Source of the DNA: Bacillota bacterium
Lineage (GTDB): Bacteria > Bacillota > UBA4882 > UBA10575
Reading direction: 5' to 3'
Assembly (NCBI GenBank): GCA_012838955.1
Contig: DUOH01000039.1
Location: 1-48,696, forward strand
DNA length: 48,696 nucleotides
The notes below the pieces were generated by a model. That model made no database searches, had not been told where the DNA came from, and worked only from the letters and a program-made list of their open reading frames with translations. Both the position numbers and the translations under genes were made by a program. Shown here in pieces: positions 44,566 to 48,696 of this stretch; the first letter of the stretch is position 1, and the number at the start of each line of letters is the position of its first letter.

Positions 44566-45159
44566 TTATTCATCCTCCAAACACCGGCTTTTTCTGCTTC
44601 CCGGTTTGATGATGGGAAGCCCTTGTTTGCACCAGGGACATTCCGCAGGTTCGTAGGGTTTAATCTCCATACTCAATAATGCCTCTGTTTTGGCCTGGAA
44701 TTTGACCCGGCCGTTGCTACGGTCCACAAAAACCCCAACCCCCCCGATTTTGGCGCCTTTTTCCGTAACTGCTTCGATTACTTCCCGTACAGAACCGCCG
44801 GTGGTGATGACATCTTCTACGACCAACACCTTTTCGTCCGGCTCAATCTCAAATCCCCGTCTGAAAGTCATTTTTCCGTTTTCCCGTTCGGCAAAGACCA
44901 TCCTGGTCCCGAGGATCCTGGCTACTTCATACGCAATTAAAATTCCGCCAATGGCCGGAGCGGCCACTACATCAATCTCATCTCCTTTGAACCTGGAAGC
45001 CAATTCGCGACAGAGGATTTCCGTAAAGCGGGGGTGCTGAAGAACTTTGGCGCATTGCATATACTGATTACTGTGCTTTCCGGAGGTTAAGAGAAAATGT
45101 CCTTCTTGTAAAACGTGGGTTTCTCGAAAAATATCAAGGATCTTCTCGGCGGAGAGCAT
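44566..45159 (-). CDS. pyrE: Orotate phosphoribosyltransferase
   Basis: 197 residues, ATG with GAGGAGG upstream. PRPP-binding loop VLVVEDVITTGGS; FLLTSGKHSNQYMQ near the start. It makes OMP from orotate and PRPP. The C-terminal Cys-containing tail (AECPWCKQG) is a feature of the longer pyrE subfamily. Confidence 0.96.
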   Translation of the reverse strand: MLSAEKILDIFRETHVLQEGHFLLTSGKHSNQYMQCAKVLQHPRFTEILCRELASRFKGDEIDVVAAPAIGGILIAYEVARILGTRMVFAERENGKMTFRRGFEIEPDEKVLVVEDVITTGGSVREVIEAVTEKGAKIGGVGVFVDRSNGRVKFQAKTEALLSMEIKPYEPAECPWCKQGLPIIKPGSRKSRCLEDE

Positions 45160-45200: not shown

Positions 45201-45935
45201 TCAGTCCTGCATCTCCTGAACGATGGAGTTGAGGGCGGCCACCGGATCGGGAGCGTCTAAAATCGGACGGCCGATCACCAGAAAATCCGCGCCTTCGGCT
45301 ACGGCTTGTCCCGGTGTTTTATAGCGGGCTTGATCACCGGGGGCCGCCCACGACGGGCGAATCCCAGGCACTACAGTGAGAAAATCTGCTCCGTAGCATT
45401 TTTTTATCTGCTCAACTTCCCATGGAGAGCAGACCACTCCGTCCAACTCGGAGCTTTTGGCCATTCCGGCCAGATGAAGCGTTGCTTCTTCCAGTGGCAG
45501 GGAAATTCGTAATTCATCGTGCAGAACTTCAGGGCTGTGACTGGTTAAGACCGTTACCCCAATGACCCGGGGTGGGCTGATTCGCTCAGTAGCAGCCATC
45601 TTCTTTATTGCGGCGGCCGTGCGTTTCATCATTTCCACTCCACCCAGGGTGTGCAGGTTAATGAGGCCCACACCCAGCCGGGCCAGGACGACCGCTGCCT
45701 TCTGTACTGTATTGGGGATATCATGCAGCTTCAGATCGAGAAAAATGTTAAACCCTTCTTCCCGCAAGAAGGTGATTACTTCCGGACCTTGAGCATAAAA
45801 GAGTTCCATTCCCACTTTGACCCATTTTACATGGGATTTCAATAAAGCGGTCCACTTTTCCAAATCCCGGCGTGTGCTTACATCCAAGGCTACGATGATA
45901 CGCTCCCGCGCGTCGATATGGTTGGCTTTTGTCAT
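45201..45935 (-). CDS. pyrF: Orotidine 5'-phosphate decarboxylase
   Basis: 244 residues, ATG with GAGGTG upstream. Catalytic segment IFLDLKLHDIPNTV (Lys-Asp tetrad), IIVALDVS at the start and VVPGIRPS near the end. Decarboxylates OMP to UMP. It follows pyrD by four bases. Confidence 0.97.
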   Translation of the reverse strand: MTKANHIDARERIIVALDVSTRRDLEKWTALLKSHVKWVKVGMELFYAQGPEVITFLREEGFNIFLDLKLHDIPNTVQKAAVVLARLGVGLINLHTLGGVEMMKRTAAAIKKMAATERISPPRVIGVTVLTSHSPEVLHDELRISLPLEEATLHLAGMAKSSELDGVVCSPWEVEQIKKCYGADFLTVVPGIRPSWAAPGDQARYKTPGQAVAEGADFLVIGRPILDAPDPVAALNSIVQEMQD

Positions 45936-45939
45936 GAGA

Positions 45940-46866
45940 TCACCTCGCTGAAAAATTGTGCGCCACTCCTGTTAACTCGGTAATCTGAGCAACGTCTTCC
46001 TTAACCAGGAACTCTTCCAGTTCTTGCAGGATCCCGACAGGAGCCAGCGGCTGAGTGAAGAGCCCGGTGCCGATCGCCACGGCGGAGGCCCCGGCCATGA
46101 TGAACTCTAAGACATCCCGGGCAGAGGTTACTCCGCCCATTCCGATGATGGGAATCTTGACCGCCTCATATACCTGCCAGACCATTCTCAACGCCACCGG
46201 TTTCACGGCCGGGCCGGATAAGCCGCCGAAGATATTGCCCAAAACCGGACGGCGTTTCTCGAGGTCAATGGCCATCCCCAGTAAGGTATTGATCAGGGTA
46301 ATCGCGTCGGCGCCGGCCTCCTCCACCGCCTTGGCAATTTCTGTAATATCAGTGACATTGGGTGATAACTTCACCCATACCGGCAAGGTGGTATGCTTCT
46401 TGACAACCTCCGTGACCTTGGCCGCGCTTTCCGGATGCACACCAAAGGCCATTCCGCCCTGCCGGACATTGGGACAGGAGATGTTTAACTCTAAAGCGGC
46501 GATCCCTGTTTCCGCCTGCAAAATCTTGGCGATCTCCGCAAATTCTTCCAGAGTGGAACCGGCGATATTGGCAATGACTGTAGTGTCAATTCTGCGTAGG
46601 ACCGGCAACTCTTCGGTGACAAACCGGCGTACGCCGGGGTTCTGCAGACCGATAGCGTTTAGCAGACCGGAAGGGGTCTCGGCTATCCTGGGCGGCGGGT
46701 TCCCTTCCTTCGGCTGTAAGGTTATTCCCTTCACCACAATTCCACCGAGGAGTGAAACATCAAATAATTCGCTGTATTCGCGGGCAAAACCAAAGGTGCC
46801 GGAGGCGGTCAGGAGTGGATTTTTCAGTGTTACCTCACCGATCCGCACCGATAGGTGGTTATTCAT
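45940..46866 (-). CDS. pyrD: Dihydroorotate dehydrogenase B, catalytic subunit
   Basis: 308 residues. Class 1B: GIVVKGITLQPKEGNPPPR, the NISCPNV catalytic-loop Cys, and GMGGVTSARDVLEF near the FMN site. It forms a heterotetramer with PyrK, encoded just upstream with an 8-base overlap, and uses NAD+ as acceptor. Cytosolic. Confidence 0.97.
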   Translation of the reverse strand: MNNHLSVRIGEVTLKNPLLTASGTFGFAREYSELFDVSLLGGIVVKGITLQPKEGNPPPRIAETPSGLLNAIGLQNPGVRRFVTEELPVLRRIDTTVIANIAGSTLEEFAEIAKILQAETGIAALELNISCPNVRQGGMAFGVHPESAAKVTEVVKKHTTLPVWVKLSPNVTDITEIAKAVEEAGADAITLINTLLGMAIDLEKRRPVLGNIFGGLSGPAVKPVALRMVWQVYEAVKIPIIGMGGVTSARDVLEFIMAGASAVAIGTGLFTQPLAPVGILQELEEFLVKEDVAQITELTGVAHNFSAR

Positions 46867-47683
46867 CTAAGATCACCTCATCTGCGGGAAAGACCGGTCC
46901 TTCCCGGCATACCCGTTTATAGCCATGGGTTGTTCTGGTTACACAACCCAGACAGGCCCCAACGCCACAGGCCATCCTTTCTTCCAGGGACAATTCTCCC
47001 GGGATGGCCAGTCTGTTCATTAAGTCTTGCACTGCTTGCAGCATGGGCCGGGGACCACAGGCGTAGTAGAAGTCGGCGCTTTGGGGTTGGACCTTTTCCC
47101 GCAGCAAATCAGTGACCAGTCCGGAACGGCCAATACTCCCGTCTTCCGTCACCAAGTACACCTGGCTTGCCAGATCACGCCACTCCTGGAGAAAGAGTAG
47201 ATCTTGTTTGCTGCGGCCACCATAGAAGAGGATGACCTCCCTTCCTCGCTTGGACAACTCTTCTCCCAGGGCAAATAAGGGAGGCATCCCGATTCCTCCG
47301 GCGATTAACAGTATCCGTCCAGGTTTGCCCGCTGTCTCCTGGGGGAGGGAGAAGCCACGGCCCAAAGGGCCAAGCACCTCCAAGGCATCATTGGCCTTTC
47401 TCCGGCTAAGCCAGGCGGTGCCTTTGCCCACTTTCTTGTAGAGGACCTCCCAGATTTCACGTGCACCAACTTCCGAATCCGCTGCTGTTGTCCGGGGATA
47501 AATTCTGAAGAGGCTGAGCGGACGGGGTAATAAGGGATCGGTCCCGCTTTCCCTGCAGTAGATATGGATAAATTGGCCGGGAAGAGCCGGACTGCTTTGG
47601 ACGACGGGGGTCGAGAGTTTTAAGTGGAAGAATTCTTCCCCCAGACAAGTCTGGTTGATGACCAGGGCCTGGAATTTTACCAT
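46859..47683 (-). CDS. pyrK: Dihydroorotate dehydrogenase B, electron transfer subunit
   Basis: 274 residues. FAD domain (RPLSLFRI), NAD domain (LLIAGGIGMPPLFALGEEL), then the 2Fe-2S site CGVGACLGC with a fourth Cys in RVCREGP. It starts about 40 bases after the carA stop, so carB is not between them, unlike the Bacillus order carA-carB-pyrK. Confidence 0.97.
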   Translation of the reverse strand: MVKFQALVINQTCLGEEFFHLKLSTPVVQSSPALPGQFIHIYCRESGTDPLLPRPLSLFRIYPRTTAADSEVGAREIWEVLYKKVGKGTAWLSRRKANDALEVLGPLGRGFSLPQETAGKPGRILLIAGGIGMPPLFALGEELSKRGREVILFYGGRSKQDLLFLQEWRDLASQVYLVTEDGSIGRSGLVTDLLREKVQPQSADFYYACGPRPMLQAVQDLMNRLAIPGELSLEERMACGVGACLGCVTRTTHGYKRVCREGPVFPADEVILDE

Positions 47684-47722: not shown

Positions 47723-48696
47723 TTATAATAAACTCAAAAAGTCTGTGAATAAAGGCAAGGAATCAAAAGCGGGAGCGGCTTCCGCACGGTATTGTATGGT
47801 AAAGACCGGCAGTTCTTTATGGCGCAAGCCTTCTACCGTGCCATCGTTGACGTTTCTATGTGTCACTTTTACCATGTCTTTGTTTAAAGACTCTTCTCTA
47901 ATGGCGAAGGTGTGGTTTTGACAGGTAATATGAATTCTGCCGGTGGTCAGATCCCGTACGGGATAATTGGCGCCGTGATGTCCGAATTTCAGTTTATAGG
48001 TGTCGCCACCCAAGGCCAGTCCCACCACTTCATGACCAAGGCCGATTCCGAAGAGGGGGAGTTTACCCAGGAGTTGCCTTACGGTTTCCACCACATAAGG
48101 CACTCGCTTCGGGTCTCCGGGGCCATTGGAAATGAGCAGTCCTCGGTGTTTTGCGGAGAGGATCTCTTCCGCCCGGGTGGAGGCTGGATAGATCGTTACC
48201 GCACAACCGGTTTCTTGCAGAAGTTTACCGATCTTATTCATGGCACCTAAATCCAATATGGCTACACTCGGCCCATTGCCCGGCAGCACAGAAATCTGCT
48301 TGATGGAGGTTTTCTGGACATGATCCTCCTCCCCGAGACCAGGTAAGGCCCTTACCTTTTCTACCAGCTCCGGAAGGGCAACGACGGAGGTGGTCAATAA
48401 ACCCTTCATGCTGCCGGAAGCACGGAGTTTACGGGTTAAGGCTCGGGTATCAATGGAGGCCAAACCCATCAAACCGTATTTTTTCATGAACGCATCCAAG
48501 GTCTCTCTGCTCCGCCAGTTGCTGGGCTGGGTACAAAATTCCCGCACAATCAGACCCCTGGCATAAGGACGCTCGCCTTCAAAATCATCGGGGTTAATGC
48601 CGTAATTACCGATGAGCGGATAAGTCATAGTGATAATTTGTCCACTATAAGAGGGATCCGTCAAAATCTCCTGATACCCGGTGATGCTGGTATTAA
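47723..48696 (-). CDS. carA: Carbamoyl phosphate synthase small subunit, glutaminase-dead, N-terminus beyond edge
   Basis: The frame continues to the window edge; about 324 residues are visible and roughly the first 40 are missing. The N-terminal CarA domain is well kept (TGYQEILTDPSYSGQI, TYPLIGNYG, DTRALTRKLR). The GATase domain keeps NGPGDP and NDGTVEGLRHK. However, the nucleophile motif, normally GICLGHQ, reads GIGLGHE: Cys is Gly (codon 48041-48043) and the Gln-binding Gln is Glu. The catalytic His motif, normally QYHPEASPGP, reads QYRAEAAPA: His is Arg (codon 47786-47788); the Glu remains. Such a protein should not hydrolyse glutamine and may only support an ammonia-dependent synthase. 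carB is not downstream. Confidence 0.93.
   Translation of the reverse strand, partial: NTSITGYQEILTDPSYSGQIITMTYPLIGNYGINPDDFEGERPYARGLIVREFCTQPSNWRSRETLDAFMKKYGLMGLASIDTRALTRKLRASGSMKGLLTTSVVALPELVEKVRALPGLGEEDHVQKTSIKQISVLPGNGPSVAILDLGAMNKIGKLLQETGCAVTIYPASTRAEEILSAKHRGLLISNGPGDPKRVPYVVETVRQLLGKLPLFGIGLGHEVVGLALGGDTYKLKFGHHGANYPVRDLTTGRIHITCQNHTFAIREESLNKDMVKVTHRNVNDGTVEGLRHKELPVFTIQYRAEAAPAFDSLPLFTDFLSLL

Follow-up and report, generated by a model that had tools for sequence, protein, structure and literature searches.

The DNA analysed here, referred to as the window, is the whole of contig C25 (48,696 bp) from a 2.52 Mb draft genome in 67 contigs, estimated to be 98% complete and so missing about 2%. 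The end of the contig truncates a carA gene of the pyr-operon type (47723..48696, minus strand), which encodes the glutaminase subunit of carbamoyl phosphate synthase (CPSase) and has its 5' end cut at the contig edge. The first 32 codons of this gene, together with a strong AGGAGG Shine-Dalgarno sequence, were found at the extreme end of contig C30, where they are preceded by pyrR-pyrP-pyrB-pyrC. The two contigs overlap in frame by 16 bp, and the joined CarA is 354 aa long with no stop and no frameshift.

Downstream of carA, also on the minus strand, lie pyrK (46859..47683), pyrD (45940..46866, assigned from its sequence and operon order), pyrF (45201..45935) and pyrE (44566..45159). Members of the class have the gene order pyrC-carA-carB-pyrK-pyrD. 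The first-pass annotation of this DNA had described the carA-carB-pyrK order as broken, and indeed pyrK directly follows carA here, at the place that carB holds in the pyr operons of the class.

Loss of the catalytic residues of CarA

Residues are numbered throughout as in E. coli CarA, in which glutamine hydrolysis requires both Cys269 and His353 (PMC6245113). In the window CarA the nucleophile Cys269 is replaced by Gly (GGC, 48041..48043), Gln273 by Glu (GAA, 48029..48031), the catalytic His353 by Arg (CGT, 47786..47788) and Pro354 by Ala (GCG, 47783..47785). All four codons lie on the minus strand, each read from its higher to its lower coordinate, and the four replacements are as the first-pass annotation had given them. 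The codon following the last of these is GAA, by which Glu355, the third residue of the triad, is retained; Ser47, Gly241, Gly243 and Asn311 are retained as well. Two further replacements on the same strand are Met for Lys202 (ATG, 48239..48241), a position occupied by Lys in 98% of Cys-type CarAs, and Ala for Gly359 (GCT, 47768..47770), an ammonia-tunnel residue that is changed in the E. coli G359F mutant (PDB 1m6v).

The remainder of the protein is conserved, as had also been claimed. Of the 61 columns in which 58 Cys-type CarAs show full or near invariance, the window CarA keeps 54 and departs at 7, and six of the seven departures are located at the glutaminase site or the ammonia-tunnel exit (hypergeometric p about 0.002, with the site list drawn up after the fact). 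The protein passes the cut-off of the equivalog TIGR01368 (380.6 bits vs. 307.35) and scores 292 bits against E. coli CarA. It is predicted to fold like E. coli CarA (mean pLDDT 86.9; TM 0.9 to 1c30, a C269S mutant). These observations confirm that the window CarA is otherwise intact but lacks the residues for glutamine hydrolysis.

A single carB in the arginine cluster

No second CarA was found in this 98%-complete genome. The further matches belong to other class-I amidotransferases; the Cys is present in those of them that were read (GICLGHQ or GICYGMQ). The sole full-length carB (C24:70312-73458) is located within argC-argJ-argB-argD-carB-argG-argH, a cluster that is contiguous across argD-carB-argG and contains no carA there. 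The carA and carB of this genome are separate genes in separate clusters, not one fused polypeptide. The earlier claim that no carB adjoins carA is correct for the pyr operon, and the genome does possess an intact carB elsewhere. Its product scores 1553.7 bits, has both ATP-grasp sites intact and agrees with the CarBs partnered with Cys-type CarA at all 21 checked positions, which we take to be the catalytic ones. It departs at 15 of 403 near-invariant columns, and in the alignment with Cys-partnered CarBs no substitution specific to ammonia use was identified. PyrB and ArgF are both encoded in the genome, and no match to the carbamate kinase (arcC) model TIGR00746 was found there at E <= 1e-20, thus the CPSase should feed both pathways.

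The window CarA groups with the pyr-type CarAs, on a fairly long branch whose placement is not strongly supported, and the CarB groups with the arg-type CarBs. In the arg clusters used for comparison, G065 has argD-carA-carB-argF-argG, and G085 has argD-carB-argF-argG without carA. The simplest history would be that two ancestral carAB pairs existed and that the pyr carB and the arg carA were then reciprocally lost. Because the CarA is of the pyr type and the CarB of the arg type, we only infer that the two are partners here.

Loss of Cys269 and of carA among relatives

All eight CarAs in the family of the window genome are Cys-less, the seven others all by Cys-to-Gly replacement, and searches of the family's genomes brought up no Cys-type CarA. 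Within the class, 7 of 29 genomes have a Cys-type CarA, all of them in families f4 and f5. A single loss shared by the window CarA and the other Cys-less CarAs of the family was rejected (AU p = 0.0009), and since these CarAs belong to different lineages, the losses are independent. The first-pass annotation had raised the question of whether the loss is clade-wide; it is so in effect, but it did not happen as one event.

Some relatives have gone further and carry carB without carA. These include six other members of the family, G016 of the same order, and G020, G022, G024 and G025 of the same class. In genus g2, the order pyrB-pyrC-carA(C269G)-carB is found in G001, G009 (where the contig ends in carB), G011, G013 and G015. 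In G012 and G014 of this genus carA is gone and the order is pyrB-pyrC-carB, with the carB of G012 beginning within about 100 bp of the pyrC stop. Between sister species in the sister genera of the window genome, dN/dS is 0.14-0.17 for the Cys-less CarAs and 0.07-0.09 for the CarBs that partner them. The values for CarA show that the Cys-less CarAs of the sister genera are still under purifying selection as proteins.

Several other features of these relatives were observed. The CarBs L079-L084 and L087 (from G016, G020, G022, G003, G008, G010 and G025, all without carA) make up a single well-supported lineage separate from the main CarBs; their neighbours include no recognised pyr or arg gene, and all checked catalytic residues are retained. 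Neither carA nor carB was found in G004 and G005 of the same family, which carry arcC, or in G017 of the same class. PyrB/OTC-family proteins and carbamate kinase are present in all three, which may obtain carbamoyl phosphate in another way that needs no glutamine. Searches for AmtB-type ammonium transporters were negative for the window genome and for nearly the whole of its family. Across the class, Amt is present in 6 of the 7 genomes with a Cys-type CarA and in 4 of the 22 without, a scarcity that would suit an ammonium-rich way of life, although kinship confounds the comparison.

Recurrent Cys loss across prokaryotes

In the phylum sample, 19 of 78 CarAs are non-Cys, all of them with Gly. 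On the tree, parsimony needs 10 changes to account for the non-Cys state, and well-supported branches force at least 4 of them. The CarAs of two genomes of the phylum share 67-70% identity with a Syntrophomonadaceae MAG, a similarity that points to Bacillota. A DNA-pattern scan of the GTDB representatives yielded at least 118 loci with a non-Cys CarA; the scan was designed to catch such CarAs, so it indicates the breadth of the phenomenon and not its frequency. The taxa among the matches listed include many gut Clostridia, Bacillaceae, Syntrophomonadaceae, Opitutales, Akkermansia, Alistipes, Treponema and some archaea. Whole-genome searches were performed on 16 of the scan's genomes. Only Cys-less CarAs were found in Oceanobacillus rekensis, Virgibacillus sp. 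MSJ-26, Edaphobacillus lindanitolerans, Bhargavaea cecembensis, three Lederbergia, Kroppenstedtia guangzhouensis and Clostridium mediterraneense, and the isolates in this state include cultured Bacillaceae. An intact CarA copy was found beside the Cys-less one in Acetivibrio mesophilus, Lactobacillus selangorensis, a Clostridioides strain and Anaeromassilibacillus An172.

The pattern of change within these proteins was assessed by comparing 125 non-Cys with 58 Cys-type CarAs. The most relaxed columns include His353, Glu355, Pro358, Asn240, Ser47, Lys202 and Gly359, which belong to the glutaminase pocket and the ammonia-tunnel exit, and most of the other near-invariant columns are unchanged.

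Other searches were less productive. With the window CarA as query, a sequence search of genome contigs found no relative. The short pattern GxGLGH[Q/E], applied over the phylum as a CarA finder, was rejected, as 1 of the 30 loci read was a CarA. This short motif, also found in Cys-less CarA, is carried by ObgE-type GTPases (L106-L135), and motif-only scans are therefore misleading. A separate observation at loci found via Cys-less carA is a CarB fused C-terminally to diaminopimelate epimerase (DapF, PF01678), at L159:1232-5278, L138, L178, L192, L212, L218 (Treponema) and L238 (Anaeromassilibacillus An172). The fusion was present in 7 of 7 long CarB ORFs checked, and ORFs of such size occur at about 25 loci.

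A probable ammonia-dependent CPSase

Judging from gene content and active-site residues, we think it likely that this organism has an ammonia-dependent CPSase whose CarA is non-catalytic, a possibility that the first-pass annotation had put forward. The genome has one CarA, one intact CarB and both consumers of carbamoyl phosphate, and no carbamate kinase was found in it. Its other class-I amidotransferases keep their Cys, and relatives have undergone repeated Cys-to-Gly losses and carA deletions. The genome was also searched for a second intact carA-carB pair accompanied by decay of the window gene, and this was not found.

In the proposed enzyme, the CarB of the arg cluster would use bicarbonate, two ATP and free NH3 to make the carbamoyl phosphate that supplies both PyrB and ArgF. 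The CarA of the pyr operon would no longer hydrolyse glutamine and would be retained as a non-catalytic partner, probably one that contributes to stability, to allosteric communication or to the shaping of ammonia entry. We infer the use of ammonia, the assembly of the window CarA with CarB and the role of CarA from the sequence evidence given above. Synthesis of carbamoyl phosphate from NH3 by CarB alone in vivo has been described for E. coli, though at very high ammonia (Rubino 1986, 1987, as cited in PMC6245113). The ammonia needed by E. coli CPSase is very high and probably unphysiological (PMC6245113), thus the CarB here would need a better affinity for ammonia.

It could be argued that CarB alone uses ammonia and that the window CarA is a leftover heading for loss that no longer serves any purpose. 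In sister species carA has disappeared altogether and the pyr operon still contains carB, genomes with carB but no carA are common in the class, and the window carA itself lacks its operon partner carB and sits on a longish branch. However, the gene has a full-length frame, a strong ribosome-binding site and 54 of 61 near-invariant residues retained, and the Cys-less CarAs of the sister genera are clearly under purifying selection, which makes a CarA without function unlikely in our assessment. There is very little to recommend a CarA that has taken up a regulatory or scaffolding role outside carbamoyl phosphate synthesis: its fold is retained and its gene no longer adjoins carB, as such a role would allow, but carA remains in the pyr operon between pyrC and pyrK, and most of its sequence is conserved like that of CarB-bound CarAs.

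The draft state of the genome invites two more explanations. An intact carA, for example an arg-type partner of carB, might lie in an unassembled part of this 67-contig, 98%-complete draft, in which a contig break falls inside carA. The chance of this appears slim, because the arg cluster is contiguous across argD-carB-argG without carA, the same carA-less cluster is found in G085 of the same phylum, and no genome of the family was found to have a Cys-type CarA. Sequencing or assembly error would be a natural suspicion for a gene at a contig edge in a single draft genome. Several separate codon changes at one site within an intact frame, and the recurrence of this kind of loss in seven other genomes of the family and in at least 118 GTDB loci, render error exceedingly improbable, in agreement with the first-pass annotation.

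An ammonia-dependent CPSase with a retained, non-catalytic CarA is thus the explanation we prefer for this genome. For prokaryotes at large, we lean toward the view that ammonia-dependent CPSases have originated many times by one route. The Cys of CarA would change, most often to Gly; the glutamine pocket and the tunnel would then relax, with selection still preserving CarA in a non-catalytic role; and certain lineages would finally lose carA by deletion, leaving CarB to work alone. Glutamine is held to donate the nitrogen in every type of CPS other than CPS1 (PMC4655335), and its use has been extended from E. coli to all bacterial CPSases (PMC6245113), a rule that this view would overturn. 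No earlier report of a Cys-less bacterial CarA was found in the open literature, subscription journals being mostly outside the search.

Pyrimidine and arginine synthesis both begin with the enzyme at stake. Should Cys-less and CarA-free CPSases prove functional, "glutamine-hydrolyzing" names, the TIGR01368 equivalog and metabolic models would be wrong for many genomes. Natural graded intermediates, sometimes within one genus, would connect the channelled amidotransferase with the ammonia enzyme, a transition that vertebrate CPS1 made as well. Natural enzymes, some of them from cultured Bacillaceae, would likewise allow tests of the long-standing question of how CPS takes up free ammonia.

Comparison with known systems

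Carbamate-kinase-type supply in Pyrococcus and the CPS-less Thermococcus (PMC13260591) resemble the proposed system in providing carbamoyl phosphate without glutamine hydrolysis by CarA. They differ in relying on another enzyme family, whose arcC was not found in the window genome, though it occurs in G004 and G005. The bacterial CarAB (CPS II; E. coli, PDB 1jdb/1bxr) is alike in its two-subunit proteins, fold, intact CarB catalytic residues and pathway. Here, by contrast, CarA has neither Cys269 nor His353, its tunnel residues are altered, and carA and carB lie in different operons and come from different lineages. Mutations of Cys269 and the G359F mutation in E. coli CarA abolish or uncouple glutamine use and leave ammonia-dependent synthesis. 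These laboratory mutants (PDB 1c30, 1m6v) are changed at the same positions as the window CarA, whereas the changes here are natural, affect the sole copy and are recurrent in evolution.

A subunit that is retained after losing its nucleophile is already known as the solution of CPS1. The first-pass annotation had drawn the parallel with the vertebrate enzyme; CPS1 uses free ammonia and has Ser294 at the nucleophile position in human (PMC4655335). Mitochondrial CPS1 (PDB 5dot/5dou) shares with the window CarA an inactive glutaminase-like part in which the nucleophile Cys is replaced and the rest retained. CPS1 is one fused chain, activated by N-acetylglutamate and serving the urea cycle, whereas the putative enzyme described here would consist of two separate bacterial subunits, with Gly in place of Cys, the catalytic His also lost, and a biosynthetic role.
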